Shown: positions 1 through 20,029 of the stretch, piece by piece
Layout: each line of letters starts with the position of its first letter
How positions within the stretch are numbered: the stretch's first letter is position 1
Virus record (IMG/VR): IMGVR_UViG_3300045970_000593
Span: 1 to 22,364 of that record
Length of the DNA: 22,364 bases
DNA from: a virus
Strand: one strand, 5' to 3'
Notes under the pieces: model-generated
The model's database searches: none
Told to the model about the DNA's origin: nothing
Seen by the model: the letters and a program-made list of their open reading frames with translations, nothing else
Position numbers and translations under genes: made by a program

Positions 1-1469
1 CGGGCGTCCGGGTCAGGGATGTCGATGGCCTTCATGCGACAGCCGTAGTTAGACTTGCCCTTCAGGAGCGCCACCGCCAGCCCCTCCTTCTCCAGGCACG
101 TTGCCATGCGAGGCAGATCGTGTCGCGCCAGTTGGTGCTGTAGGGCTTTCTTGGCGGTGCTGATGACAACCCGCTTACCCGATAGGACCGCCGGGACGCC
201 ATAGGCGAAGGACTTACCCGAATTGTGCGTAACGGTGCAATCGCCCAGTAGATAGCGCCCATCCCCGTCTAGCGTAAAGCCGTAGAACGATTCCTTAGTA
301 CCGGTGGGCTCCAGAGTAAACCCTGTTCGGAGCACGTCTTTCTTTTGTCTACGCATCGAAGCCTGCTTACGGGGGATCCGGCAGGGGATGCTTTCGAGCT
401 TGCCCGAGATACAGACACGGTGGTAGGTGCCCACGTGTTGCGGGTGCGCGCTCTTCTGACAGACCTTTACGTAGGCTGCGAAGCCAAGCGTCCGTGCTAG
501 GAACGCTACATCGCTCGCTAGCGTTGGTGACTTGCTAACATAGGCGTAACAACCGTGGGCGTAGGACCCGTCGGTATCTAGAAGCCCTGCTAGTACTTCT
601 ACCCGTACGGCTGCGGGCGCTTGCTTATATGTGGCGGGAATAAAACGGTCGACGCACGCAATAGGCCATAGGCCCAGCAGAACAAGTTTCTTAGAAAGGG
701 GGCTCTTCTTCCCATGTCCGCGAAGTTCGTTAGGGCGGGTTAACCGGTACGTGATACCGGAATTTGTAACTACCATCCCCAGTGACTCTGTATAGATGCG
801 TACGGCGTCTACTACTTCTGGGTCCTGACTGGTCAAGGTTATACTGCCTTTGCTCGTCGACAGCCCGCCGTCACCCAAGAGTACACCAAGCACATAAGGG
901 TCCACAGGAAGAATGCCGCGGGATGTTTTTGCGAACGTAGCGGGGGCCCGGAACAACTTATGGTCAGCGCGCCGATGCTTAGCCCAGCGCTGAAAGTCTG
1001 AAACAGATACGTCCGTTACTTGTCCGGTGGTCGTCTCTACAAGGGTCAGTACATGCCCGACGTTAACCCGCCAGCGATTACCCTTAACAGGTACGACGTC
1101 GACCATTTCCTGCCGACCTCTGTGTAGCTGTTGTACGCAACGGGGTGTGCCGTCAGGCCCGACTAAGTAGTCACCTACGGCAACGTCTTCCACTTTCTTA
1201 ACTGTTCCGGAGTACATCAAGATATCCTGCCCCGCGGCATGACACCCAACCGGGGCTTCAATAATGCCGGCTGATTGGGTAGCGATCAAACGTTCGATCA
1301 TCCGGGCCATCTCAACCTGACCTGGCCGCACAGTCTTTACTAGGTGGTTGTGCTGATGGAGCAGGAAATCATCGCTGTCGTAGATCAGGCTATTGCCACA
1401 CGCCATACATAGCCGGTCCTCGGGGACACGGTCGATCTTGTTCGCTACACCGCAGCTGCTGCACTTCAT
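1..1469 (-). CDS. DinG/XPD-like superfamily 2 DNA helicase, intein-containing, 3' end beyond window
   Basis: The frame is open from ATG at 1469 to the left edge (489 codons). Once the intein (residues 76-416) is removed, the visible host protein begins with a zinc-ribbon-like N-terminus (C3xxC6, C21xxC24). It continues with a Q-motif-like VRPGQVEMARMIERLI (about 47-62), then the rejoined P-loop EAPVG/SGKSFAYG, motif Ia STAKKALQHQLARHD and LKGKSNYGC (C477). In DinG/XPD helicases the last motif carries the first iron-sulfur-cluster cysteine. These ATP-driven 5'-3' helicases unwind DNA in the cytoplasm. The start is supported by GAGG seven bases upstream. The gene diverges from the tail operon. 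The remaining cluster cysteines, DEAH box and motifs III-VI lie outside the window, so DinG versus another Rad3-type helicase cannot be settled. Confidence 0.85.
   Translation of the reverse strand, partial: MKCSSCGVANKIDRVPEDRLCMACGNSLIYDSDDFLLHQHNHLVKTVRPGQVEMARMIERLIATQSAGIIEAPVGCHAAGQDILMYSGTVKKVEDVAVGDYLVGPDGTPRCVQQLHRGRQEMVDVVPVKGNRWRVNVGHVLTLVETTTGQVTDVSVSDFQRWAKHRRADHKLFRAPATFAKTSRGILPVDPYVLGVLLGDGGLSTSKGSITLTSQDPEVVDAVRIYTESLGMVVTNSGITYRLTRPNELRGHGKKSPLSKKLVLLGLWPIACVDRFIPATYKQAPAAVRVEVLAGLLDTDGSYAHGCYAYVSKSPTLASDVAFLARTLGFAAYVKVCQKSAHPQHVGTYHRVCISGKLESIPCRIPRKQASMRRQKKDVLRTGFTLEPTGTKESFYGFTLDGDGRYLLGDCTVTHNSGKSFAYGVPAVLSGKRVVISTAKKALQHQLARHDLPRMATCLEKEGLAVALLKGKSNYGCRMKAIDIPDPDA
222..1244 (-). 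mobile_element. LAGLIDADG-type intein (341 aa) in the helicase Walker A motif
   Basis: This is an in-frame protein insertion, not a separate gene. It begins with Cys1 in CHAAGQDILM (block A). Block B is GNRWRVNVGHVLTL (intein residues 55-68), with the block B His at 64. Two dodecapeptide endonuclease motifs follow: LGVLLGDGG (119-127) and LAGLLDTDGSY (218-228). Block F/G is YGFTLDGDGRYLLGD then VTHN, with penultimate His340 and terminal Asn341. The +1 extein residue is Ser. Cutting at Cys1 and Asn341 restores APVGSGKS, a proper [AG]xxxxGK[ST] P-loop. It is therefore a class 1 intein with a probably active homing endonuclease domain. Both acidic residues typical of LAGLIDADG catalysis are present (D124, D223 or D225 by position in the motifs). 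Confidence 0.93.
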
Positions 1470-1557: not shown

Positions 1558-2154
1558 ATGTCCGACCGTCCGACTATTGGTGATTTCCGCTCCGTACCCG
1601 CCAACGCCCCCCGGGGGTCGATGATTAGCTCAGAGACGCCGCCGGCGCAAGAGGCTGCCACTCCGAAGGAGGCGCCTGAGGCTCTGACCACGGCCGAGGT
1701 CGCCACCAAGGCTACCGAAGAGCTCACCCCTGCGGAGCGCTATCGTAAGCGCCTCGAGGAGGCGAAGATCTCGTTCGCTACCGCTACAGCTATCTACGAT
1801 GCGGTCCTGGACAAGGGCTTCTACGAAGAGTACGTCAAGATCCGTAGTAACCGCGCGGTGCTGCGTACCCGTACGTATGAGGAGCAGCTTCGGGTCCAGA
1901 CTGCCCTCGAGACCTACCAGCCCCGGATGGCCGTCAGTCAGGAGGAGCTCATCTCCCGCTATAACCTGGCCGCCTCCCTGTACGAGTGGAAGGGGAAGGT
2001 CATCAAGCATGAGACCGACGAGGACTTCGACGCGGCCATGAAGATGATCCAGAAGATGCCCGCGCCCCTGGTTGGGCTTCTGTACGACGCCTTGGCCAAG
2101 TTCGACGCTCGGGTGATGATGGTCTTTAGCGAGGGCGCGACCGACAGTTTCTAG
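1558..2154 (+). CDS. Putative tail assembly chaperone (G-like), 198 aa
   Basis: The protein has a disordered Ala/Pro/Thr/Glu-rich N-terminus (about residues 1-60) and a mostly helical, charged remainder with Lys/Arg/Glu segments. No enzyme motif is visible. ATG 1558 was chosen because CGAGG lies just upstream, and because an earlier in-frame ATG at 1393 would run into the divergent helicase gene. Its position as first gene of the tail operon, followed by a small gene in the -1 frame and then a tape-measure-like gene, matches the G/GT tail chaperone arrangement of many tailed phages. In those phages the pair binds the tape measure protein during tail assembly. The assignment rests on gene order and size, not on a recognised domain. 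A different virion assembly protein remains possible. Confidence 0.5.
   Translation: MSDRPTIGDFRSVPANAPRGSMISSETPPAQEAATPKEAPEALTTAEVATKATEELTPAERYRKRLEEAKISFATATAIYDAVLDKGFYEEYVKIRSNRAVLRTRTYEEQLRVQTALETYQPRMAVSQEELISRYNLAASLYEWKGKVIKHETDEDFDAAMKMIQKMPAPLVGLLYDALAKFDARVMMVFSEGATDSF
2148..2154 (+). other. Candidate -1 ribosomal frameshift site TTTCTAG
   Basis: The last sense codon of the upstream gene is TTC, preceded by T and followed directly by the TAG stop. tRNA-Phe could slip back one base from TTC to TTT while the stop codon waits in the A site, after which CTA would be read. The -1 frame is open from 2130 (just after a TAG at 2127-2129) through the whole downstream gene to 2537. It is not the classical X-XXY-YYZ heptamer, since the preceding codon AGT would re-pair badly as CAG. 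Simple stop-restart at GTG 2163 is an alternative. Confidence 0.35.
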
Positions 2155-2162
2155 CCACCCCC

Positions 2163-2537
2163 GTGGGCAATGAGCGCGCGTCACTAGCCGCTCGCGGGGT
2201 CAAGCTAGCACCCAGAGGATCAGCTCGAGACGAAGCCCTCCGAGAGGTGCTCCGGCGAGAGAGATCTGAGAAATTCGCAGAAGTACAGCTCTTCGCCCGT
2301 CTGATTGGCCAGGGTCTAGGTATGGCTGAAGACGGGGTCGAAAGTATGCTAGACTTGTACCTGCTAGAACTGTCCCAAGACCGTTACCGTCCTAGTATTG
2401 TGCAAGCTGCTCGAGCGGCCCGTAGTGGCCGGAAACAACAGAAAGAAAACGATAAGGCGCTGCTCGCGCGAGTCGACGCCCTTACGGAGTCGGACGACGA
2501 CGTGCCGATGCCTAAACGTAAGCCGCGGAGACGCTAG
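2163..2537 (+). CDS. Putative tail assembly chaperone second part (T-like), 124 aa or frameshift extension
   Basis: The frame encodes an Arg/Lys-rich, helical protein with a basic tail ending in PKRKPRRR. A middle segment around MAEDGVESMLDLYLLELSQ looks amphipathic. The only early start is GTG 2163, eight bases after the upstream stop, with no purine-rich ribosome site before it. The frame is -1 relative to the upstream gene and stays open back to 2130. This suggests it is made as a C-terminal extension of the upstream protein (about 326 aa in total) as in GT tail chaperones, or by reinitiation. It ends two bases before the next ATG. No domain is recognised and function is inferred from position only. 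Confidence 0.5.
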   Translation: MGNERASLAARGVKLAPRGSARDEALREVLRRERSEKFAEVQLFARLIGQGLGMAEDGVESMLDLYLLELSQDRYRPSIVQAARAARSGRKQQKENDKALLARVDALTESDDDVPMPKRKPRRR

Positions 2538-2539
2538 AG

Positions 2540-5500
2540 ATGGCAGATCAGGATCGAGGCTCACCCAACCCGATGCAGATGCAACTGGGCCTCGGGGGCG
2601 GCGGTAGCTTTAATCCTGTTGGTATCCCTACTCCTCAGCCTGCGATGCCTTACGTCCCGTCCCCAGGAGAGACGTCGCAGAACGTAGTTAACCAGACGCA
2701 GACGCAGGCTATGCGGACGATCCAGTCTGCACAGATGGTCTCGCCCACCCCGGTGGGCTCTTTCTCCCCCTACCCCACGTTCCAGAATAACCCCATGGGT
2801 GGCATGTCCGGCGGGTACGCTCAGGCGTATCAGCAGAACATGGGGATGATCAATTCGAACCTAATCGGTAGCCCCTTCTACGCACAGATGATGGCGCGGA
2901 TGGGCGGTATGGGTCAGGGGTTCCAGGGCGGGATGATGCCCTCACCTACCCAGATGACGGACCCCTCGATGGGGTTATACCGGCCGTTCCCACAGCCGTC
3001 TGCGGGCGTTGTTCCACCGACTCCGCAGCTACCTCTCTTCCGCCATCCGCTGGTGCCCGCGCTACCGGCTCCTCGCTTTCAGACCCCATTTGAGTTTAGC
3101 TACAACGTGGCCCAGCAGCGTGCTGATCAGTTCACTGCGGCCGCTATGGGGGCTCCGTCCATTGGGGCTCGCCTAGGGGCTGATGCCTACGGCGCCTCTT
3201 TGATGGGCGGTCTCGGTGCAGCCGCTGGCGCTTTCCTCGGGGGCCCTGTCGGCGCCCGGGTGGGCGGCATGATCGGCGGTCTCGGGGGGTTGTATGGCAC
3301 GGAGAGCTTAGGCATCGGGCGGGGTGTACAGAATCTGGTTAACCAGCTGAACCCGATGAACTCTCTCATGTCCCGTGGCGCGCAGATCCAGGGCATGAGC
3401 CAGGATTGGATGGTCGGTGGGGATCACCTCTCCATGGTTGGCCGCGGTATGTCGCGGAGCTCTTCTATCCGAGCGGGTCGGTTGATTGAAGACCTGGGCT
3501 ATAACTCCGAGTTCAAGCAGTCTACCGCCAACCACTTCTCGGTACAGGACCTGACGCGCATCACTCAAACCGCAGGGCAGGCGGGCATGCTGGACTTCGC
3601 CCGCTCCCCCGAAGCGATGCGGGATGAGGTTAGTAAGATCGCGAAGCAGCTGCGTACGTTCATGCAGATCGCGAACGAGCCTAACGTTCGAGAGGCCGTT
3701 AAGCAGATGGGGCAGCTCCGTGCGCTGGGCATGGACACTGCCGACATGAGCGGGTTCGCACTCCAGTCGCGCACCTTCGCGCGCATGGCGGGCACGACGA
3801 TGCGTGGTCTGGCCGAGACCGCTGGTCTCCCCGGGGCCATGATGTCCCAGCAGCTAGGGCTCTCTGCCGGCTTGGGTATGCAGATGGGTCAGGGCATGTA
3901 CGGCATGGCCAAGCAGGCCATCGCCGGCGGTGCATACACCGTTCAGGAGATCTCCATGCTCGGCGGGGCGCAGGGCATCGCGCAACGCAACACGGAGTCG
4001 GCGCTCGCTACGCTCAAGATCCCGCTCATGGCGGCGGCTATGAGTCAGCTCACGTCTGGCGGCCAGTCGTTCGGGATGCACAACGACAACATCAAGGCGA
4101 TGGCTAGCGGTAAGCTCGGCATCTCTGGCATCGCGCAGGCGGGCGTTCAGAACATCCATAACGCCGTAGCTCAGGGCGGCATCGGGGCCCTCGGCTCGTT
4201 CATCATGCAGCAGGATCAACTCCAGGACAACATTGGCCGTATCCTTGGTCCTGTTGGTATGAAGAACCTGCAGATGCGCTCGATCCTCGGCGTTCAGAAT
4301 GACCTTGGTTACGACAAGACCCCCGGCGGCTTGGGGCTCGCCGCTATGTCCATGGGCATGGATAAGAACCAGGCCCTACAGTTTATCCGTGAGGCCAATA
4401 GCCCCTCCTTCTTCAAGGGTCTACAGAAGCAGTTGGATGTGCAGATCCGCGAGATGCGTGCGACTGCCGCCGACGCCCATGACAGGGAGTATAACGGGAT
4501 CGCTAAGCGGATGGGACGGCGGTATAGCACGGCGGAGAGCTTTGGCGATACCATAGATCACATCGGACGATCCTTCCGTAATGGGCTCGAGCGCATGGGG
4601 CAGGGGGTATCTGAGTTCGGCGAAGATTTCATGCTTCGTGAGGGCGAGTACGCCATGCGTCGACCGCAGGAATTGATGGCGGGCGGCGACTTACAGATGC
4701 GCGGTCTACAAGACCGATGGTCCCGTCGTTCTCGGACCAGTGAGCAAATCGGTATGGTTGGAGGGCGGGCCGCAGGGCTCCTGAACCTGGGCGGTCGTGA
4801 GTATGGCCGCGGCGGATTTGCTGATTGGTGGAATGACCGGGTTGGGGAACGCGAAGAGGACCGAGAGTGGGCCCGCGGTGAAGGCGGCCTAACTTCTATG
4901 TTCGCGTTCATGCGAAAGCCGATGCTCGCCTTCGGTATGATCGACCGTGTTCCTAATCAACGGGATCAGCTACAGGGCCGAGCTGATGTGTCGGGATTCT
5001 TCCGGGAGACGCGAAACCAGACCGGGGCGCAGACTGAGGCTGCGTATGCTGCGTCGAAAAAGGCATTCGGGGGTGATACCGATAGAGTCTTGGCCAAATT
5101 AAAGATGGCCGCGGGTAAGGCCGCCAACCAATACACTGACTTAAAGGGTACGAACGCCCGCGCGGGGTCTGAGTACTTCGATTGGGTTCAGCAGGAGCTG
5201 GTTAACGACGGAACGCTATCCGCTGCTCAGTTGGCCGAATTGAAAACTAACGCACGCGCCCACCTTCGTTCTTCTGGCGCGGATGCTATCGGGGGGATGA
5301 CCATTAACGGGCAGGAGGCGATTACGGGAACGGGCGGAGATTCCATAGGAAATGCCACTAACCGTGACAGTACTCAACGTCATCTGGATATGTTTGATAG
5401 AGCCAATAGGGCTATGTTTGGCAGTGGGCTAGCGAACGTGCAGACTGGAGAAACCTTAAAGTATCTTGCGTCTATGGACGACAATAAAGCCGCTTACTTC

Positions 5501-6235
5501 ACGAGCCGGGCCGCGACGGAGCGAACCGGGGGTAAGTGGAAAGAAGATTCTAACCTGGCCTTAAGTATGAAGTTAGATGGGCCCACGCGGTCGCGGCTAG
5601 CCAAGGAGTATGAGAAGGAAAAGGCCGAAGCCAGCGGCACGGACCGATTTAACCAAATCGGTATCACGGGTGCAAGGTTAACCAAGCTAGCCACCGTAAA
5701 TGGTGTAGTCGACATCGATAGGTACCAAGCCTTAGCCAAGCAGGGCTACGACGCCGTTGCGAATGCAACGGAGGGTCAATCCATCGGAACAGGGCTCCAA
5801 AAACTGCTCCCAATGCAGATGCAAATGATCGCCAGTGAGTACGAAGCGCCGACGAAACTAAGCGCCGATGAGCGTATGGAGCGCCTCCTAAAGGCCAGCC
5901 ACGGCAAAGGAAACGTTACAAAGCTTTGGCAGGACCTGGCTAATGAGTTTAATAGAGACAGCGGCGACCCCACAAAGAAGGCTGCGATCATCAAACGGGC
6001 TCAAAACATCGCTAGTAACGCCGACGGGGGTGGCAGCAGCGTTCAAGGCAGTACCGCTACCGATCGCGCGTCGATGATGATCGTCGATGAGAAGGGTAAG
6101 CTCGCCGACACACAGCAGCAGCTCGCAGGTAGTTTCCCGGATGCAGTGAGTGAACTCCGTAAGTCGGCGATGCTCCTACAGGAAGCGGCTAGCCAACTGG
6201 GTGGTGGGATGAACCGCTTCTATGGGCCCGACTAA
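2540..6235 (+). CDS. Putative tail tape measure protein, 1231 aa
   Basis: This is the longest gene in the window and lies directly after the chaperone-like pair, where tape measure proteins are found. Such proteins fill the tail tube, set its length and help DNA entry. Residues 1-170 are low-complexity and rich in Met, Gln, Gly and Pro. A glycine-zipper-like hydrophobic stretch at about 205-260 (repeats of GGxxG, AAAGAFLGG) could insert in membranes. The rest is largely helical, with Met/Gln/Gly-rich parts to about residue 630 and a more charged second half. The end has a short helical ELRKSAMLLQEAASQL segment. By the usual rule of about 0.15 nm per residue it would fit a tail near 185 nm. 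There is no peptidase or lysozyme motif. Codon use shifts towards A/T-ending codons in the second half. A different large virion protein is possible. Confidence 0.55.
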   Translation: MADQDRGSPNPMQMQLGLGGGGSFNPVGIPTPQPAMPYVPSPGETSQNVVNQTQTQAMRTIQSAQMVSPTPVGSFSPYPTFQNNPMGGMSGGYAQAYQQNMGMINSNLIGSPFYAQMMARMGGMGQGFQGGMMPSPTQMTDPSMGLYRPFPQPSAGVVPPTPQLPLFRHPLVPALPAPRFQTPFEFSYNVAQQRADQFTAAAMGAPSIGARLGADAYGASLMGGLGAAAGAFLGGPVGARVGGMIGGLGGLYGTESLGIGRGVQNLVNQLNPMNSLMSRGAQIQGMSQDWMVGGDHLSMVGRGMSRSSSIRAGRLIEDLGYNSEFKQSTANHFSVQDLTRITQTAGQAGMLDFARSPEAMRDEVSKIAKQLRTFMQIANEPNVREAVKQMGQLRALGMDTADMSGFALQSRTFARMAGTTMRGLAETAGLPGAMMSQQLGLSAGLGMQMGQGMYGMAKQAIAGGAYTVQEISMLGGAQGIAQRNTESALATLKIPLMAAAMSQLTSGGQSFGMHNDNIKAMASGKLGISGIAQAGVQNIHNAVAQGGIGALGSFIMQQDQLQDNIGRILGPVGMKNLQMRSILGVQNDLGYDKTPGGLGLAAMSMGMDKNQALQFIREANSPSFFKGLQKQLDVQIREMRATAADAHDREYNGIAKRMGRRYSTAESFGDTIDHIGRSFRNGLERMGQGVSEFGEDFMLREGEYAMRRPQELMAGGDLQMRGLQDRWSRRSRTSEQIGMVGGRAAGLLNLGGREYGRGGFADWWNDRVGEREEDREWARGEGGLTSMFAFMRKPMLAFGMIDRVPNQRDQLQGRADVSGFFRETRNQTGAQTEAAYAASKKAFGGDTDRVLAKLKMAAGKAANQYTDLKGTNARAGSEYFDWVQQELVNDGTLSAAQLAELKTNARAHLRSSGADAIGGMTINGQEAITGTGGDSIGNATNRDSTQRHLDMFDRANRAMFGSGLANVQTGETLKYLASMDDNKAAYFTSRAATERTGGKWKEDSNLALSMKLDGPTRSRLAKEYEKEKAEASGTDRFNQIGITGARLTKLATVNGVVDIDRYQALAKQGYDAVANATEGQSIGTGLQKLLPMQMQMIASEYEAPTKLSADERMERLLKASHGKGNVTKLWQDLANEFNRDSGDPTKKAAIIKRAQNIASNADGGGSSVQGSTATDRASMMIVDEKGKLADTQQQLAGSFPDAVSELRKSAMLLQEAASQLGGGMNRFYGPD

Positions 6236-6423
6236 TGAATAAACTAATACTCCCGAGCGCAATCAACGTCCTGACCGCCCTGAACGAGGAGGTTGTGCTG
6301 CGGCGTAAATTGAGCATTACGCCAGTATTGTCCTTACCCAAACTACGCACGCGTGCGTGGATTGTAGTTACCGAGACGAGCCCGATGGTCATCACCCTTC
6401 TAGACATGCCTGAGGTCCCCTAG
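6235..6423 (+). CDS. Small protein of unknown function, 62 aa
   Basis: The ATG overlaps the tape-measure stop codon (TAATG), so translation is probably coupled. The protein is hydrophobic and basic (VVLRRKLSITPVLSL, RTRAWIVVTETSPMVITLL), with alternating residues that suggest beta strands rather than a membrane helix. It ends three bases before the next start. It is not recognised. Its place between tape measure and baseplate genes suggests a small tail component. The tight stop/start packing on both sides supports a real gene despite the short length. Confidence 0.55.
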   Translation: MNKLILPSAINVLTALNEEVVLRRKLSITPVLSLPKLRTRAWIVVTETSPMVITLLDMPEVP

Positions 6424-6425
6424 TC

Positions 6426-7388
6426 ATGGGCGTATTTCCACTACAGTGGGACGGAGATATCGATAGATTCCAGATCGATGAAGACCCGGCTGAGGGCACT
6501 AACTATAACCGCGGAGTACACGCCAAAAATCCGGTAACCACTCCTAAGTGGTACAACGGTAAGGAAGACGGGGGGTACCGCGAGAATCTTGCGCGTATGT
6601 ATATCCCTTTGAGCCCGAGCGATCGGGTCAAGTTTATCCAGTCTGTGACCACCGTCAGTGGCGGAGACATGGACTCAGTGCGCCTGGCGGAAGCGTTGAC
6701 GGACCGCGGTTACATGGACTTCTTCCTGTCGTCCACCACCCGGATGCACACGGAAAAAGCGGACGTGATCGAGCATAACGCGGATGGCTTTGTCGTGTAC
6801 TACTTCGGAGCCGCGGCTACGACGTACTCTTTCAGTGGCGTTGTCTTGAACTCCGCCGAGAACGACCAAGCCGTTAACATGCTGAAGATCTATAAGAACA
6901 TCATCCGAGGTACCGAACTCGCTAGGCGCCGCGCTCTGGTGTATTTGCGTTATGACAGCTATCTAGTCGGCGGAACGCTACAGGGGTTCCAGGACTCGCT
7001 CACAGCGGACAATGAGTTGGCTATGCCGTTCAACTTCACGATGCTGGTCCACAAGGTGATTGACCGGCCACGGCGGGGGCCCGAGAGTCTAGCTATCCTG
7101 CGGCCTACCACTGCGTTCGATGAAGAGAATTTACTGGGTAAACCCTCTGATACGGTGGCGCCCTTGGGGCACTACGAAGCGGCTATGGCCCCTCCTATCC
7201 GCCCAACACCGGCGGTTCCTCCTACGGACACAACTCCCCTCACCGACGCACAGAAGACAGCAGCAAGATTAAACGCGGTGCCCCTCGAAAAAAGTCTGTA
7301 TCAACTGGCTGAGGGGGAGGCCCAAACGGCGTCCGAGGCTAAAACGGAAGCCCAGAATAGGCGCGACGCGGCGAAGGTGAGACGATGA
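6426..7388 (+). CDS. Putative baseplate/tail-tube structural protein, 320 aa
   Basis: ATG is preceded by GAGG at a suitable distance. The central part (about residues 115-215) reads FVVYYFGAAATTYSFSGVVL, then a helix with KIYKNIIRGTELARRRALVYL, then a strand-rich GGTLQGFQDSLTA and PFNFTMLVHKV. This pattern of a strand-rich barrel that describes an axis, a helix and a displacement strand is similar to proteins joining the tail tube to the baseplate in several myoviruses. I recall it only as a general resemblance. The C-terminal 90 residues are Pro/Thr/Ala-rich, then charged and helical (probably disordered or coiled). Its stop overlaps the next ATG (ATGA). The structural role is inferred mainly from context. 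Confidence 0.5.
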   Translation: MGVFPLQWDGDIDRFQIDEDPAEGTNYNRGVHAKNPVTTPKWYNGKEDGGYRENLARMYIPLSPSDRVKFIQSVTTVSGGDMDSVRLAEALTDRGYMDFFLSSTTRMHTEKADVIEHNADGFVVYYFGAAATTYSFSGVVLNSAENDQAVNMLKIYKNIIRGTELARRRALVYLRYDSYLVGGTLQGFQDSLTADNELAMPFNFTMLVHKVIDRPRRGPESLAILRPTTAFDEENLLGKPSDTVAPLGHYEAAMAPPIRPTPAVPPTDTTPLTDAQKTAARLNAVPLEKSLYQLAEGEAQTASEAKTEAQNRRDAAKVRR

Positions 7389-7792
7389 CCCTAGCAGATC
7401 TAACGACGCGTCTTAATACCCCCTCCCTCTTCCCACACGTCGAGCGGATGCGTCTTGCTTGTCTTGCGGCTAGTGCCCCCAGTGCGCCCAATCAGGTAGG
7501 GGCAATGATTAAACGTGTATACGCCACCGACCTTGTGTCGCTCTTCAGCGACAAAATCGAGTTGCCGTTGGGGTACCTGGACGTTGACTACGCGCCCTAC
7601 GCCCTCAACTACACCGTTACCATCACAGACGCCATTGACTTAACGCGGGTTGCGGTGTTAGAACAGCTTGCGCAGTCTGGCGTGACACGGCAGTACCTGG
7701 ACCCCATCACCGTGTACACCACAGACCATACGCCGCAGGGGCGCGTCGCAGGCTCCTTCGCAACGCTTCTTATCGCTTGCATGAGCGCCTAA
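7385..7792 (+). CDS. Hypothetical tail-operon protein, 135 aa
   Basis: ATG overlaps the upstream stop as ATGA and has AAGGTGAG upstream as ribosome site. The protein has an N-terminal helix, a mixed middle with DLVSLFSDKIELPLGYLDVDY, and a strand-like end (NYTVTITDAIDLTRVAVLEQL). No signal peptide or membrane span is seen. The stop overlaps the start of the hub-like gene (TAATG), so these genes are likely translated in step. It is not recognised. It is probably a small baseplate or tail-completion component by location. Confidence 0.6.
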   Translation: MTLADLTTRLNTPSLFPHVERMRLACLAASAPSAPNQVGAMIKRVYATDLVSLFSDKIELPLGYLDVDYAPYALNYTVTITDAIDLTRVAVLEQLAQSGVTRQYLDPITVYTTDHTPQGRVAGSFATLLIACMSA

Positions 7793-10320
7793 TGCCCGCT
7801 GAGACACCGCATCGTGGAACATGGATCCTCTACCTAAACGGTATCGAGGTCCCGTGTCCCGACATGTCCGTTACCTACGGCGTGTGGCAGGTACCTGAGG
7901 CTACCTTAAATCTCCCGCCCCACCGCATGCTCGAGCGCTTGGGCACCGAAGACCGTATCGATGTAGCCATCTTCTATCTCGACGATTTGATCGAGCCGGA
8001 GAAGCCGCAGTTCCGTTTGTTGTTCGAGGGGGAGATTGCGGGTTGGTCGTACAACAACACGCCCTTCGGCCGCGTGATGTCCTTCCAGGCTATCGGGGAC
8101 ATCACGATCTTCCGTCAGATCTTCTTCTTCTTCATGAATACGGTGGACGCGGTTACTCAGTACCACACGATGCCGCAGACCATGGCAGCACCCCCGCCGG
8201 CCAACCTATTCTACCCGACTAGCCTGTTCTACAAGGGGTTGCTTACCGTCGACAAAGCGGGTAAGCCCAGCGAGCTAATCAAGCGTCCCTTCGAGCTGAT
8301 GTACAACATCGTGCGCGGTATGATCGACGCTAACCTCCCTAAAGAGAAGCGTACGATCCCTAGCGTTAACTTCTTTAGTCGCTGGGTCCGTAAGCGTAAC
8401 TTCCATAACCGCTTTGTGTCGCTGCCCTTGTTCGAAGACCCTTATTCGCCGCCTGTTTTAACTACGTGGCAGGAGACCCTTAAGGATAAGACCAAGGAAG
8501 AAATGGAGACTTCGGAAGAAGACCCTAAGGATATTGCGGCCGTACTGGCATATCAGAAGGGGCAGCAGGACTACGGCGTCTTCCCTATCTTCAAGGCCGC
8601 GCAGTGTGCCTCTGCTATGGTTGCTGTCAAAGAGGGACTCGCACCTACCGTTGGCGAATCAGGATCTATGATGGACGTCTTGCGCGAGGTCTTGGGTAAG
8701 GCCTACTCCGAGATGGCTATGATCCCCACCGCCCCCATGCACGAAGTTGACCTGGAGACGGGTGTCATCACGGGGACGCCCGACACGGAGCAACCTCAGG
8801 ACCTTCAGAAGCCTTGGCGACTGGCTAACTTCTTCACCAAGCCTGCGATGTACTTCGGTATCCCCCCGATGTGCAACGTTGTGTTCCCGGCGAACATTCG
8901 CTCGCACCAGTACCAGGAGAACTACTGGGCACAACCCACGCGCGTGTACGTCAACGATACCTTCGTACAGTCAATTCTCGGAGAGAACGCGTTCACTGCG
9001 GACGCCATTCGGGTTGGTTACCCTCCAGAGGTTAACGCCACCATACAGGCTGCTCTCCTCCGCCAACAACAAGCCGCTACGGGTAAGCCTGTTAACCCTA
9101 AGGCTCCGCCTATCACGGCGCAGGCCCTACGGAACGCTAAGAACATACTCGTGTTCCCCGAGGAGTTCTACAAGGGCCCGGTTCTTTCTCGTATGCCCAT
9201 CCCGGCCTGGTTCCATATCCTCATGAAGCTCTCCAAGCCGCGTAAGGATACGGGAGCCACCGCTAAGGATGCGCCCCCGCTGCCGGCGGTCATTGAGGGA
9301 GCAGCGATTCATACCCTCTTCGAGAAGTATGCCGAGTACGAATACTACCGTCAACGCTACGAGAAGCGTGGCGGACAGGTAACCATGGTGTGGAACCCCT
9401 ACATCGTTCCGGGGTTCTCCTGCGCCATCTTCGATACCCGTCGTGAGGGGCTAGACACGATGGGGTACGTGCAGAACGTCACGCACTCGTACTCGACCCG
9501 TGGCCGTGGGGTGGGTTCTCAGAGCACGACGATGTCGTACGGTTTCGGCCGTACCCTTCGGGAAACGCTAGACCTGATCAGCGACCTGCAAGGCCGCGGC
9601 GTCGTCACTGGTAACGGTCCTCTCGACCCGGTCCAGACGGTACGGGAGATCACTCACGACTTTGACCAGTCGGAAACATTCTTCAGGTCGCTTTTCTTTG
9701 GCCGCGGTAAGGCGCAGACCTTCACCACTCCCGCCTCGTTCGACTTCCGCAAAATTATTGGGTACGTAACGGGAGAAGATGCGTACGGTAATAATCGCAC
9801 TGTGGTCCCCTTCGATGTTACCCCTACGTCTAATAATATCCCTGCCTCGCGTACACACGAGATCGCGCCCCTCCCCGGGCGTGAACCAATGTTCAATAGT
9901 TTTGAACAGGGTATGAAGACCATAGCGCGTCCTATCTGCACGCTGACGCAGTACATCCTCTGGATGCACCCCGGGAAGACCATGAAGGAATTGACTACCC
10001 CCGTCGAAGGTAAGGCCTCGGTCGAAGGCCCCTCGACGACGTTCTCGGACGGGGTGTTGTCCGCCGGGTCTGAGTATCCGTCGGCTATATATTGGGCGCG
10101 TATTAAGCGTCTAGTACAGGGCCCCGGCGGGGAGCCACCCGCGGGCGCGCGCGGGGTGACCATTACAACCCCGGCTACTGCGGATGCCGATGCGACGGCC
10201 ACCCCTGAGGCCGGGCAGCCTGTAGCGGTTGGTGCCTCTGCGCCGCAGACCCGTTCGGACTGGGACAAGATCCTCGAAGCTTACCGTATCGAGATGTACA
10301 GCAAGCTGCCACAGAGGTAA
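7792..10320 (+). CDS. Putative baseplate hub protein (gp27/gpD-like), 842 aa
   Basis: The start chosen is ATG 7792 in the TAATG overlap; a TTG five codons upstream in frame is less likely. The N-terminus (about 8-105) is strand-rich, with LYLNGIEVPCPDMSVTYG and FRLLFEGEIAGWSYNN, then VMSFQAIGDITIFRQI, as in hub proteins that form a ring around the central spike. Near residues 515-590, MVWNPYIVPGFSCAIFD, YVQNVTHSYS and STTMSYGFGR look like the gpD-type domain, in which a location-changing loop is followed by paired strands. Residues about 780-820 are a low-complexity Ala/Thr/Pro linker. Its length is greater than T4 gp27, as in large myoviruses. It is followed by the sigma factor gene after two bases. 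No lysozyme motif is seen in it. Confidence 0.65.
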   Translation: MPAETPHRGTWILYLNGIEVPCPDMSVTYGVWQVPEATLNLPPHRMLERLGTEDRIDVAIFYLDDLIEPEKPQFRLLFEGEIAGWSYNNTPFGRVMSFQAIGDITIFRQIFFFFMNTVDAVTQYHTMPQTMAAPPPANLFYPTSLFYKGLLTVDKAGKPSELIKRPFELMYNIVRGMIDANLPKEKRTIPSVNFFSRWVRKRNFHNRFVSLPLFEDPYSPPVLTTWQETLKDKTKEEMETSEEDPKDIAAVLAYQKGQQDYGVFPIFKAAQCASAMVAVKEGLAPTVGESGSMMDVLREVLGKAYSEMAMIPTAPMHEVDLETGVITGTPDTEQPQDLQKPWRLANFFTKPAMYFGIPPMCNVVFPANIRSHQYQENYWAQPTRVYVNDTFVQSILGENAFTADAIRVGYPPEVNATIQAALLRQQQAATGKPVNPKAPPITAQALRNAKNILVFPEEFYKGPVLSRMPIPAWFHILMKLSKPRKDTGATAKDAPPLPAVIEGAAIHTLFEKYAEYEYYRQRYEKRGGQVTMVWNPYIVPGFSCAIFDTRREGLDTMGYVQNVTHSYSTRGRGVGSQSTTMSYGFGRTLRETLDLISDLQGRGVVTGNGPLDPVQTVREITHDFDQSETFFRSLFFGRGKAQTFTTPASFDFRKIIGYVTGEDAYGNNRTVVPFDVTPTSNNIPASRTHEIAPLPGREPMFNSFEQGMKTIARPICTLTQYILWMHPGKTMKELTTPVEGKASVEGPSTTFSDGVLSAGSEYPSAIYWARIKRLVQGPGGEPPAGARGVTITTPATADADATATPEAGQPVAVGASAPQTRSDWDKILEAYRIEMYSKLPQR

Positions 10321-10322
10321 TC

Positions 10323-11018
10323 ATGGACTACAAGAATCGCGACATTGAGCTCTGGACGCAGTGGAAGAAAACACAAAACCCATACGACCTACAAAAGCTG
10401 CTGGATCAGATGTCGGGAATAATTGCTCGAGAGTGCAACAAATGGGCGCCTTCTATGTCTCGGTCGCTGCTCGAGGCTGAAGCTAAACGCCTTACCGTAG
10501 GCGCGTTCAAAGAGTTCGACCCGAAGCGCGGTGTCGCGCTATCAACCTTCGTAGCATCACGTCTCCCCAAATTAAGTAGGCTCACATATAGTGCACAGAA
10601 TGCCGCACGTATGTCCGAGACGCAGGCCCTAGGGTTTAACGCATACCACTCCGCCAATACGGAGCTAACTGACCGCCACGGCCGCGAACCTACCCTCGCG
10701 GAGTTATCAGATCATCTTGGGTGGACCCCGCGCCGCATCACGCAGTTCCGGACCCAGTCCCGACGTAAAGAGTTCGTGGAGTCAGAGGAACACCCGGATT
10801 TTGGGGAAACGGCGGATGACTTTCTTATCGATTTCATCCATAATGGCTTGACGCCCTTGCAGCAGAAAATCTTCGAGCATTCCAGCGGTTATCGGGGGGC
10901 TAATATCTTGTCCGGCTCGGAGATGATGAAGAAGCTGAACATCACGCAAGGCCAGCTGAGCTACCAGAAAAACTTGATCGTACAGGCCGTAGAGAGGGCG
11001 CAAGGCAAGCATGTCTGA
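10323..11018 (+). CDS. Sigma-70 family RNA polymerase sigma factor, 231 aa
   Basis: The domain order fits a compact sigma factor. Region 2 lies at about 19-95, with AFKEFDPKRGVALSTFVASR resembling the conserved FDP..G..FSTYA..RI block of region 2.2-2.4. A region-3 helix, GREPTLAELSDHLGWTPRRI, spans about 120-139. Region 4 lies at about 176-226 (LTPLQQKIFEH, then a helix-turn-helix with EMMKKLNITQGQLSYQKN). It would bind the host RNA polymerase core and direct it to phage promoters. The usual aromatic cluster of region 2.3 is weak (no Trp), which suggests a divergent -10 element. A good ribosome site (AGAGG) precedes ATG. It sits inside the baseplate operon, so a late-gene regulator role is likely but inferred. 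Confidence 0.8.
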   Translation: MDYKNRDIELWTQWKKTQNPYDLQKLLDQMSGIIARECNKWAPSMSRSLLEAEAKRLTVGAFKEFDPKRGVALSTFVASRLPKLSRLTYSAQNAARMSETQALGFNAYHSANTELTDRHGREPTLAELSDHLGWTPRRITQFRTQSRRKEFVESEEHPDFGETADDFLIDFIHNGLTPLQQKIFEHSSGYRGANILSGSEMMKKLNITQGQLSYQKNLIVQAVERAQGKHV

Positions 11019-11973
11019 CGCGGTACCCAAAGCACTACAGGGGCTGGCCGCAAGTAACTACTTGCGCGCGTCTACCTTTGCGGGCTTCGTCAAGACCCCT
11101 GAAGTAAAGGCCAAAGCTAAGGACATCTTCAAACAGGTACTGCCTGGGGTCTACAAGCAGTACTCTGATCTGATTTTCGATAACGCCGTCGCTGCCGATG
11201 TTCCCCCTGTCTTGGTGTGGGGCATCATGCAGATGGAGAGCAGTGGTAAGGCGGACGCTGTCTCTCCTGACGGCTTCGATAAAGGGCTGATGCAGATCAA
11301 TAGCCGCGTATGGGAGGCTTGGTACGCTAGTCTTGCTGACCCGGCGGATTGGAAGAAAGCGGAACTAAACGTAGCGCAAGGAGTCGCTATCTTAGCGGGT
11401 GAATACGCAGCCATGCGACGTATGGTCGTAAAGGGCATAGCCCTCAGCGGTTATGCCCTGTCTCGAGCCGCCGTTGCGGGTTACAACGCGGGTACGCCCG
11501 CGGTACAAGCGGCCCTTTTGGCCGGAAATGACCCGGACTCTGTAACGGCTCTGGGCATCATGAAGCGGAAGAAGAAGACCGACAGGGGCTACGTGGAGAG
11601 GATCTTCGAGGCGGCCAACGACCTCAATGAAAAACTAGCCGCGTACAGTAACGATCTAGGGACGGTTGACGCCTTAGCCATGATCGTACTCTCCTCTGAC
11701 ACAACCCCCGCGGTAGCCGCCGTGGCTGCGGAAGTGCGTCAGGAATTTGTGAGCTTAGACCGCACGACGCGTATGGCGCAGCTAGACAAAAAGGCGGCCT
11801 ATGCCGCTGCTGCCGCGGCCCATCTAGCGGAGGGCGTAAAGGCTGGTAAAGCGGCCTTCGATGCGGATCAAGCGAACCAACTGGCAAACGTAGGCCTACA
11901 GCCTTTCGTAGATGATGCTAATTTTCAAAGCTTATCCTACAGTTACGTGACGGGTAAGTGGGGTGCGGCGTGA
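11011..11973 (+). CDS. Lytic transglycosylase (SLT/GH23 fold), 320 aa
   Basis: The goose-type/SLT signature is clear. VLVWGIMQMESSGKADAVSP carries the catalytic Glu76. It is followed by GFDKGLMQINSRVW (88-101), a helix NVAQGVAILAGEYAAM, AVAGYNAG (154-161) and RGYVERI (192-198). These enzymes cleave the MurNAc-GlcNAc bond of peptidoglycan with formation of an anhydro ring. No signal peptide is seen. The C-terminal 90 residues are Ala-rich and helical (KKAAYAAAAAAHLAEGVKAG). Because it lies between hub and wedge genes it is probably a virion-associated enzyme for entry, though a role in release cannot be ruled out. It overlaps the sigma gene by eight bases, with AAGG upstream of ATG. Confidence 0.85.
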   Translation: MSDAVPKALQGLAASNYLRASTFAGFVKTPEVKAKAKDIFKQVLPGVYKQYSDLIFDNAVAADVPPVLVWGIMQMESSGKADAVSPDGFDKGLMQINSRVWEAWYASLADPADWKKAELNVAQGVAILAGEYAAMRRMVVKGIALSGYALSRAAVAGYNAGTPAVQAALLAGNDPDSVTALGIMKRKKKTDRGYVERIFEAANDLNEKLAAYSNDLGTVDALAMIVLSSDTTPAVAAVAAEVRQEFVSLDRTTRMAQLDKKAAYAAAAAAHLAEGVKAGKAAFDADQANQLANVGLQPFVDDANFQSLSYSYVTGKWGAA

Positions 11974-12395
11974 GCTACGATCTCTTCTTTAACAGTGATT
12001 CGACGAGGTCAAAGCCATTCGGCTTCGGGTATCAATCGGCGGTGGGCGTTAGCGGCGTAACCAAGATGGTGAACCGCTGGACCAAATGCCTACTGACTCG
12101 GAAGGGGTCGGACCCCTTCGATCGTAATGAGGGTACTTCCTTCGTTGGCCTCGCCGGCTCGAACGTATGTGACGAAGCCGACGTTTTTGATATGGCCGCG
12201 CTCGCCGTTGAAGACTGCAATACCCAAATGCGAGCCTGGGATATGAAGTCGCAACCGCCCACCGCTGAACGATTCCTATCGGCGGCTATAACCCGTATCG
12301 TACGCGTCGAGGGCGACCGTTACGACATCTGGGTCACCGTTCGTAACACCACCGGGCAGGCGGCTACGCTGACCCTCGCGGCTACAGGCTACTAG
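11970..12395 (+). CDS. gp25-like baseplate wedge protein, 141 aa
   Basis: The core VSGVTKMVNRWTKCLLTRKG followed by SDPFDRNEGTSFVGL matches the gp25/GPW family. Members of that family have a lysozyme-like fold without enzymatic activity, join the sheath to the baseplate wedge, and often carry a conserved SDPF-type loop. The size (about 140 aa) is normal for the family. GTG 11970 was chosen because it overlaps the upstream TGA (GTGA) and is preceded by AAGTGGGG. An in-frame GTG four codons earlier is less likely. The next gene follows after an AGGAG ribosome site. The C-terminus is strand-rich (YDIWVTVRNTTGQAATLTLA). A nearly perfect palindrome lies within the SDPF codons. Confidence 0.75.
   Translation: MSYDLFFNSDSTRSKPFGFGYQSAVGVSGVTKMVNRWTKCLLTRKGSDPFDRNEGTSFVGLAGSNVCDEADVFDMAALAVEDCNTQMRAWDMKSQPPTAERFLSAAITRIVRVEGDRYDIWVTVRNTTGQAATLTLAATGY
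12101..12119. repeat. 19-base palindrome within the gp25-like gene
   Basis: GAAGGGGTC and its exact reverse complement GACCCCTTC flank one central base. In mRNA this could fold as a seven-base stem with a five-base loop. It encodes the conserved KGSDPF stretch, so the protein sequence explains much of it. It has no run of T after it, so it is not a terminator. Confidence 0.6.
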
Positions 12396-12403
12396 GAGTA
12401 TCG

Positions 12404-14350
12404 ATGGCTACGGTTACAATCAGCGATGCGATGCTCCAGCGGGCCGATGTTTTCCTATCGACCTACTTGACCGAGAAAGTCCCCGATGCGGACTTCTCCC
12501 CCGGTTCCGCGGTACGCGACTTGGTGGTCAAGTCTATCGCATATATCTACGCGTACCTGGAGAGTGAACGGGAAGCCCTGCGCGCTACGAGCTCGTTGGC
12601 CTTGATTGCGGCCATGCCCCCAAGCGAGGACGCTGACGCGGCCATCGACGCTTATCTTTCCAACCTATTCGTTACACGGAAGACGGGACAACCCACCAGC
12701 CTCCCGACCGTGTTACATTTCTCTCAACCTGTCGATGTGGTCATCACGTCCGCGATCCGCTTCTACAGAACTTCTGCGCTGGCTTTCGCGTCCGCGGATT
12801 CATACGTGATCCCCTCTAGCGCCTTAAAGATGAATACGTACGCCGGCGGGGAGCGCGATTGGACCTACACCGCCATGCTGACGTCCACCCAGAATGGCGG
12901 AAACTATAACGTCTTACCGGGTACGTTCTTACAGGTGGATAAGTTCAATCCCTACTTCACCTACGCGGAGAACATCGTAGGGGGTAAGGACGGCAAGGGG
13001 CTCGAGACCACCGCGGAGTTAATCAAGCGCGCCCCCACGGCGCTAAGCACTCGGAACCTTGTCAACGAGCGTTCCGTTAATGCCGTGCTGTACGATAAGT
13101 TCCCGGCCTTAACTCGCGCGCTGACGACCGGTATGGGTGACCCCGAGATGATGCGGGATCTGTCCAGTGAGTTCGTGACGGGGCTGAAGCTGCACCTCGG
13201 CGGGTACACCGACATCTACGTGGGTTTACCGCGTACAGAAGTCACCGAGACGCTAACGCTGAACATGGAGTTCGCCCGCGCCGACGGGTTGACTGTCATG
13301 CTGTACGACGACACGCCCCCGTACTTTACGGACGTGCGCCCCGGTCACGTCGTTAACATCATCAACGGGCTACCCAGCGGCCCGATGCAAACGATCGTCA
13401 AGAAGACCTGGTGGGCCGGACAGCTCGAGGTGATCTCCCCGTTCCCTGAGGCTGCGTCCGGTCTGACATACTCCATTGGCGCCTTCCAGCCTGCGCACGA
13501 CGATATTCGTCCTGTTAGCTCCACGGGGCGCACGGCCACTACCGTACAGAACTACGCCAGCGTCTTCCTAGCAGGGAGACCCGTATACCGTGTGCGGAGC
13601 GTAACGAGTGCTGCCGGTGCCGTCTTAAAGCGCGTACCCGACGCCCCGTCCCTTGCGGAGGATGAATATTCCGTAACGGTATACAACCCTTCCGCAGCGC
13701 AGTCGGCCAAGACTGTTACTCAGGTGCGAACCGGTTTGGCCTCGGGGGACATTACCGTTAAGTACGACACCTTGTCAGGCTACGCCGAGATTCAGGCTTA
13801 TATTACTAGCCGCTATGACCGGATCATAAACGCTAATCATCTTGCTCGGGGCTACAACCCAGTATACGTATCAGCGGCTATCAAGTATGACCGTCGCTAC
13901 GGGGCGAAGACGACCTACAATCGAGCGGAGGTGTCCAACACGGTCACGGGCTTCATCAATGACTTCGATTGGACGAACACCCTGGACGTGTCTTCGATCT
14001 CGAACGCGCTACGTCAAGCCTATCCCGATATCGGCGTAGTCTACCCCTTCGTGCTCAACTACGTGCTGTACGCCCCGGATGGCCGTATGTTCAAATTCAC
14101 GTCCCAAGACGTGGCGACTCTATTCCCTCGAGACGGCTCGACGGCGACCCTGACTAACGGCGCGGAGCTGGGTTTCAATACGGATTATCTAACGCAGCTT
14201 AAGGCGGCGTTCGCTGAACTAGGTGTTACGGACAGAACTGTTCGGTACATGGCTGACCTAGAAGACATCGACGTGTGGGAGAGGGCGTCAGAGCAAAGGA
14301 TAATCGAGGCCGCGCTGGACATCGGTACGGTAACGGATACGGTGATCTAG
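12404..14350 (+). CDS. Baseplate J-like / gp6-like wedge protein, 648 aa
   Basis: The N-terminus carries DADFSPGSAVRDLVVKSIAYIYAYL (about 28-52, only part matters: the SPGSAVRDLV block), typical of J-like baseplate proteins of P2/Mu-type and large myoviruses. The middle is strand-rich and contains GGNYNVLPGTF (about 165-175), which also recurs in this family as NVxxGTI. The C-terminal half includes GYNPVYVSAAIKYDRRYGA and a helix-rich VSNTVTGFINDFDWTNTLDVSSISNALRQ-type region, as expected for the gpJ end. It forms wedge dimers in the baseplate. AGGAG lies just before ATG. Its stop overlaps the next GTG by one base. It is longer than P2 gpJ (about 300 aa), as is common in large phages. Confidence 0.8.
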   Translation: MATVTISDAMLQRADVFLSTYLTEKVPDADFSPGSAVRDLVVKSIAYIYAYLESEREALRATSSLALIAAMPPSEDADAAIDAYLSNLFVTRKTGQPTSLPTVLHFSQPVDVVITSAIRFYRTSALAFASADSYVIPSSALKMNTYAGGERDWTYTAMLTSTQNGGNYNVLPGTFLQVDKFNPYFTYAENIVGGKDGKGLETTAELIKRAPTALSTRNLVNERSVNAVLYDKFPALTRALTTGMGDPEMMRDLSSEFVTGLKLHLGGYTDIYVGLPRTEVTETLTLNMEFARADGLTVMLYDDTPPYFTDVRPGHVVNIINGLPSGPMQTIVKKTWWAGQLEVISPFPEAASGLTYSIGAFQPAHDDIRPVSSTGRTATTVQNYASVFLAGRPVYRVRSVTSAAGAVLKRVPDAPSLAEDEYSVTVYNPSAAQSAKTVTQVRTGLASGDITVKYDTLSGYAEIQAYITSRYDRIINANHLARGYNPVYVSAAIKYDRRYGAKTTYNRAEVSNTVTGFINDFDWTNTLDVSSISNALRQAYPDIGVVYPFVLNYVLYAPDGRMFKFTSQDVATLFPRDGSTATLTNGAELGFNTDYLTQLKAAFAELGVTDRTVRYMADLEDIDVWERASEQRIIEAALDIGTVTDTVI

Positions 14351-19417: not shown

Positions 19418-20029
19418 TTAAGCTATACGGCCATTCTTCACACGCCACCGTGCCCACCCCGCGCGCATCTTCGCGCGTATTTCCTCAGATAGGGGTTTAC
19501 CGAGTTTAGCCGCGCGCAGCCGCGCTAACCCCTCCGGTGTTTTAGGCGCGGGTTTAACTCCTTTTAACGCACGGCTGATCTTCGCGCGTGTTTCCGCGGA
19601 TACTGGGCGCCCCGTCAATGCGCGTCGGTGTTCCGCGCTTTTGGGTTTTCCCTTTGAAGCTTTCGATTGTTTCTTACGTGTAGCCGCGGAGTGTTTCCAC
19701 CCACGCGCGACGCGGCCACCTTCTTTATGATTAACTAGATCACACCCGATATACCGCATGATACCTATCCAATAGGTTTCGGCGTCGTCTAGTGCTAGCG
19801 CTGAGGCGCACACCTCCAACGTGATTATTTCGGGGCGTTGGTGTGCGTCTCGCCACAATGCTTTTAACCACTTATTAATATGGCGCGAACCCTTTCGTGC
19901 CGAGGGTGTGAGGTGCTCCTTCGGTCGACGATCCCCGTACGTACTCAATCCTACGTACCGCAATTGAGCCGTACGGGGGTCGATCAAGCCGTAGATAATT
20001 AGATCACCCACAACCGGTTGTAGTCCCAC
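19418..20029 (-). CDS. GIY-YIG homing endonuclease with NUMOD3 repeats, free-standing, 203 aa
   Basis: The catalytic domain spans about 8-105: IIYGLIDP (11-18) and LRYVGLS (23-29) are the GIY/YIG pair, R34 or R35 sits where the catalytic Arg is expected, E84 in DDAETYWI is the metal-binding Glu, and VNHKEGG closes the domain. The C-terminal half holds repeated NUMOD3-type DNA-binding motifs (SAATRKKQSKASKGK, SAETRAKISRALKG, SEEIRAKMRAGW). It cuts DNA in a cognate allele lacking the gene, so it can spread. The start is probably GTG 20029, inside the reductase gene (26-base overlap); GTG 20011 is also possible. A TAA at 20066-20068 limits extension. A terminator follows. The repeated CGCG-rich codons look a little different from neighbours. 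Confidence 0.9.
   Translation of the reverse strand: MGLQPVVGDLIIYGLIDPRTAQLRYVGLSTYGDRRPKEHLTPSARKGSRHINKWLKALWRDAHQRPEIITLEVCASALALDDAETYWIGIMRYIGCDLVNHKEGGRVARGWKHSAATRKKQSKASKGKPKSAEHRRALTGRPVSAETRAKISRALKGVKPAPKTPEGLARLRAAKLGKPLSEEIRAKMRAGWARWRVKNGRIA

Follow-up and report, generated by a model that had tools for sequence, protein, structure and literature searches.

We have identified what is very probably a bifunctional class 1 LAGLIDADG intein in the P-loop of a phage DinG/XPD-type helicase, predicted both to splice and to home, and belonging to a clade that occupies the P-loops of many ATPases. The helicase gene lies at one end of the window, by which we mean the whole 22,364-nucleotide stretch of viral DNA analysed here (IMG/VR record IMGVR_UViG_3300045970_000593). 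The intein alone adds the phage DinG/XPD helicase as one more P-loop intein host; the set of 139 inteins assembled for comparison is more useful than this single case.

The helicase gene and its uninterrupted homologues

The helicase ORF (3..1469, minus strand) encodes 489 aa and runs off the window's start; since the record consists of the window's 22,364 bases only, the rest of the helicase, including its C-terminal half, lies outside view. The reading frame is open throughout, and ORF residues 76-416 form the 341-aa intein (window 222..1244, minus strand), which sits between ...IIEAPVG and SGKSFAYG..., the junction being ...IIEAPVG^SGKSFAYGVPAVL... (the caret marks the point of insertion). 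The residue following the intein is the P-loop's own Ser. An earlier note on this DNA had placed the insertion between the glycine and serine of Walker A, and EAPVG^SGKS is indeed the exact site; its coordinates and junctions were likewise exact, but the minus strand and the truncation of the gene by the window edge were missing from it.

Translation from the start codon (at 1469) to Gly75 gives the N-extein (1245..1469, minus strand), which comprises a CxxC...CxxC zinc ribbon followed by ...IIEAPVG. The ribbon lies N-terminal to the helicase, and its four cysteines, like the P-loop, are conserved in the alignment of viral homologues. The C-extein (3..221, minus strand) is incomplete, beginning with SGKS... 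and containing KGKSNYGC. When the flanks are joined, Walker A is restored as EAPVGSGKS, and the downstream KGKSNYGC fits the pattern KGxxNYxC, the DinG/XPD motif carrying the first Fe-S cysteine. The joined flanks (148 aa) match the NCBIfam families YoaA (4.3e-30) and DinG (3.5e-17), with scores under the full-length cut-offs, as expected for a fragment of 148 residues; they also match DinG entries in the PDB and phage DinG-like helicases. Helicase_C_2 was found in an insert-free homologue (L002); the window's own gene runs off the edge before a full Fe-S domain or a Helicase_C_2 region could come into view. These matches and the homologue alignment bear out the earlier assignment of the host as a phage DinG/XPD-like helicase. 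From its motifs, the host would be a DinG/XPD-family SF2 helicase, probably of the Fe-S type.

Direct searches for close copies failed, and alignment-based scans were therefore needed: the intein alone as query had no match in the viral contigs, and the joined exteins recovered one insert-free homologue. Scanning the viral contigs with the extein alignment yielded 80 DinG-like loci. A contiguous P-loop pattern was recognised in 42 of the 80, the pattern probably being too rigid for the 38 that it missed, and only these 42 and the loci in the extein alignment are counted as insert-free. The five closest loci (L158-L162), 50-54% identical in the alignment, run uninterrupted across the P-loop, and three of them (L159, L161 and L162) read EAPVGSGKS exactly. 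Homologues without an insert thus align across APVGSGKS, the outcome that the earlier note had made the test of its claim. The junction DNA is also alike, the window having GAAGCCCCGGTTGGG/TCGGGTAAGTCC where L162 has GAAGCCCCGGTAGGT/TCGGGCAAGTCC.

Motifs, fold and predicted activities of the intein

The insertion matches PF05203 Hom_end_hint (3.7e-16), PF14528 LAGLIDADG_3 (3.1e-10) and PF05204 Hom_end (6.5e-7) in Pfam, all three above the curated cut-offs. In a phmmer search it matches PI-SceI, the Sce VMA intein, at 8e-15, and its first and last residues pair with PI-SceI residues 1 and 454. A HINT splicing domain (approximately residues 1-99 and 309-341) is split by a two-motif LAGLIDADG endonuclease (approximately residues 113-300). 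These domains, the end-to-end match to PI-SceI and the intact motifs agree with the initial description of the element as a full LAGLIDADG intein.

Conservation was assessed over 139 aligned inteins, namely the window's own, eight from annotated phages and 130 from viral and cellular contigs. Cys1 (codon 1242..1244, minus strand, at the N-terminal splice junction G^C) is present in 139/139, a universality due in part to selection, as rows lacking an initial Cys were left out of the alignment. His340 and Asn341 (codons 222..227, minus strand, at the C-terminal splice junction HN^S) are likewise found in all 139, again partly by selection, as the locus scan picked HN ends. The block B histidine, His64 (1053..1055, minus strand), is present in 139/139, and G120, D223 and D335 are also invariant. 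The LAGLIDADG motifs, VLGVLLGDGG and LAGLLDTDGS, carry one acidic residue each: Asp125 (870..872, minus strand) and Asp225 (570..572, minus strand), each conserved in 137 of the 139 inteins. They align with the catalytic aspartates of PI-SceI, D218 and D326, respectively. Where block B usually has Thr or Ser, the window intein has Gly63, as do 41 of the 139 rows. Residue 329, at the block F position, is also Gly; His occurs there in 70/139 rows, Gly in 30/139 and Arg in 19/139. A loss of splicing on account of Gly329 was considered and rejected as a weak argument, given the 30 rows that share this residue.

The AlphaFold2 model of the intein (mean pLDDT 94.5, pTM 0.92) has the horseshoe HINT fold, and its best PDB match in Foldseek is PI-SceI (E 4.2e-23, TM 0.75), followed by the TliVMA, PhoVMA, PI-PfuI and Prp8 inteins. 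The resemblance to PI-SceI extends to the Hom_end_hint/Hom_end architecture, the ends and the aligned aspartates, but identity over the structural alignment is only about 20%. The window intein is also shorter (341 versus 454 aa), including between block B and the endonuclease, and the host proteins differ. Cys1, the block B His, the His-Asn end and the +1 Ser are all class 1 features, and since the scores against the domain families, the matching ends and the insert-free sites all agree, the resemblance is not due to chance. The element thus apparently is an ordinary, active class 1 LAGLIDADG intein, with splicing and DNA cutting predicted from its motifs and fold. That it is instead an in-frame endonuclease insertion or an assembly chimera without protein splicing, a notion that draws on splicing being a prediction here, is extremely improbable: HINT blocks flank the endonuclease on either side, C1 and HN^S are present, homologues lack the insert exactly, and the PI-SceI fold spans both ends.

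In the mechanism we propose, the helicase would be made as a precursor with its Walker A loop interrupted at G^S. The HINT domain would then carry out an acyl shift at Cys1 followed by transesterification to the +1 Ser, after which cyclisation of Asn341 and ligation would restore EAPVGSGKS. The ATPase function of Pyrococcus horikoshii RadA is disrupted by its P-loop intein (PMC6195587), and by analogy it is reasonable to suppose that the precursor could not use ATP until spliced. The LAGLIDADG domain, for its part, would cut insert-free P-loop alleles, and repair would copy the intein into them, which constitutes homing.

Whether the endonuclease half of this scheme still operates is the point at which the closest competitor departs from it. 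A stable resident that splices, has an inactive endonuclease and is held in place by purifying selection on the P-loop would account for the sparse distribution of the element, for the lack of an insert among the aligned DinG-like homologues and for the failure to find a near-identical copy. It also tells against our own reading that no close relative, the best having about 50% identity, signals recent homing of the window's own element. We nevertheless consider the stable resident unlikely, given intact LAGLIDADG motifs, both catalytic aspartates and a confidently predicted fold. A bifunctional intein, competent in both splicing and homing, is therefore the reading that we carry forward.

Insertion position and movement between hosts

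ATP-binding proteins host more than 70% of inteins (PMC5790916), and the P-loop has been described as a "classic" intein position (PMC5050341). P-loop inteins are known in DnaB, PcrA, UvrD, RecA and RadA (PMC5874633), and the MCM-a and VMA-b inteins sit after the Walker A Lys (PMC10643990). Our literature search, of partial coverage, found no description of an intein in DinG.

Related inteins were found in 317 phage records, 219 of which cover at least 80% of the query, and some of these records are already annotated as "intein-containing helicase". Junctions in the 139 loci fall at G^xGK[S/T] in 78 cases and three residues further on, at GK^[S/T], in 54; the remaining seven are unclassified, some having misplaced N-terminal boundaries. 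The proportions of 78 and 54 are not population frequencies, since the loci were collected for their resemblance to a seed set in which both positions were present. Hosts at G^xGK include ResIII/DEAD SF2 helicases, a ClpX-like AAA protein (L021), Cdc6 (L098), T2SSE, a type II/IV secretion ATPase (L103), a DnaB-like protein with DnaB_C (L030) and Terminase_3 (L009). When the 63 non-redundant inteins at G^xGK are clustered by C-extein similarity, their hosts form 11 clusters. The second intein residue follows the position, being His in 77 of 78 inteins at G^xGK and Leu in 45 of 54 at GK^.

DinG/XPD-type hosts occur at both positions. A further scan found an XPD/DinG-type phage helicase on viral contig L303 with an intein at exactly G^SGKS, and three distinct helicases of this type have one at GK^S (L044, L093/L094 and L307); all four hosts match Helicase_C_2 and DEAD_2. 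We had entertained the window as the first DinG/XPD intein at G^SGKS, which L303 rules out. The site had been singled out beforehand as a notable insertion point, a view that finds no support: the P-loop is a classic place for inteins, and the position is shared by 78 of the 139 relatives and recurs in L303.

Phages phiHSIC, YX3973 and PJ16 carry helicase inteins that are 39-41% identical to that of the window over their full length (BLASTP) and occupy the same place, G^[SC]GK[ST], in the P-loop of a phage helicase, but their hosts are ResIII/DEAD-type SF2 helicases rather than DinG/XPD. The L303 intein is related and matches in both position and host domains, whereas its extein is distant, no zinc-ribbon N-terminus was seen, and the tree described below does not include it. 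The already annotated "intein containing helicase" of the Salmonella phage SETP3 type carries a related intein (approximately 38%) in a phage helicase P-loop, but at GK^T, which lies three residues downstream, and its host is a helicase of the SNF2 type. Mycobacteriophage TerL1-a, haloarchaeal MCM-a and archaeal VMA-b are also Walker A inteins of ATPases, likened here by description and not by sequence; they differ in lying after the Lys (GK^) and in their hosts (PMC5050341, PMC10643990).

Two related inteins at GK^[ST] have non-ATPase hosts, namely a crAss-like phage portal protein (REGGK^S; L010, 2001-3062) and a Ruegeria phage tape measure protein (IAGK^T; L012, from 2001). Two members of the intein family (L037 and L039) share one viral contig, IMGVR_UViG_3300048930_000528, where they interrupt different P-loop proteins, each at G^TGK.

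On a tree built from 105 non-redundant inteins, seven changes between the G^xGK and GK^ positions are required, compared with approximately 33 when the labels are shuffled, and none of 500 shuffles was as low as seven; insertion position is far more clustered in the tree than expected by chance. The window falls inside a starred set of 66 rows, 61 of them at G^xGK. Measured by path, the inteins closest to it sit in a ClpX-like ATPase (L021) and in SF2-type helicases (L018 and L023); these are not an established sister group, as the window branch is long (1.09) and the tree was built quickly and carries no bootstrap values. The clustering, with the second residue following the position, suggests that an intein keeps its insertion position by inheritance even as its host gene differs. 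It is possible, if somewhat short of an even chance, that an intein clade tied to Walker A moves between unrelated P-loop ATPases, keeping the exact G^xGK point with residue 2 (His or Leu) tracking the position, and that the window represents one such jump as opposed to vertical or allelic descent. Because the clade occupies the P-loops of many ATPases, the element would most likely have arrived either through homing from the allele of another phage or through a rare jump from one P-loop sequence to a similar one. With 139 related inteins almost all on two P-loop positions in many ATPases, movement between paralogous sites becomes testable.

Why inteins favour invariant sites has more than one accepted explanation: loss from such a site is costly, and conserved DNA provides a homing target. 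The data here separate neither from the other. A regulatory reason for the position, in which splicing serves as a post-translational switch and the helicase stays inactive until a signal arrives, has been proposed for the inteins of mycobacterial DnaB and Pyrococcus RadA, precedents that include condition-responsive P-loop inteins (PMC6195587, PMC5790916). For the window intein we regard such conditional splicing as highly improbable: the sequence holds no hint of a sensor, and a position shared with endonuclease-bearing relatives explains the site without a switch. The mobile, bifunctional intein remains our preferred reading.

Other elements in the window

Structural-looking genes occupy positions 1561-14347 on the plus strand (for example, ORFs of 1231 and 847 aa) and have almost no PHROG match, which places this phage far from described ones. 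At the other end of the window (22017-22364, minus strand), the ORF of a class II (NrdJ-type) ribonucleotide reductase starts off the window, and the first 116 residues visible resemble a second intein's C-terminal part (GHNFVIWAGPDLTGSGVVVSN^TRRAAKM), in which the last Asn is preceded by Ser and not His. No relatives of this intein-like segment were found in the PDB, the viral contigs or phages. Directly after the reductase gene, and overlapping its 3' end by 26 bases, is an ORF resembling a GIY-YIG/NUMOD3 homing endonuclease of the group I intron type (19418-20029, minus strand). Counting this ORF, the helicase intein and the intein-like segment, the 22 kb hold three elements of a mobile-endonuclease-like kind.
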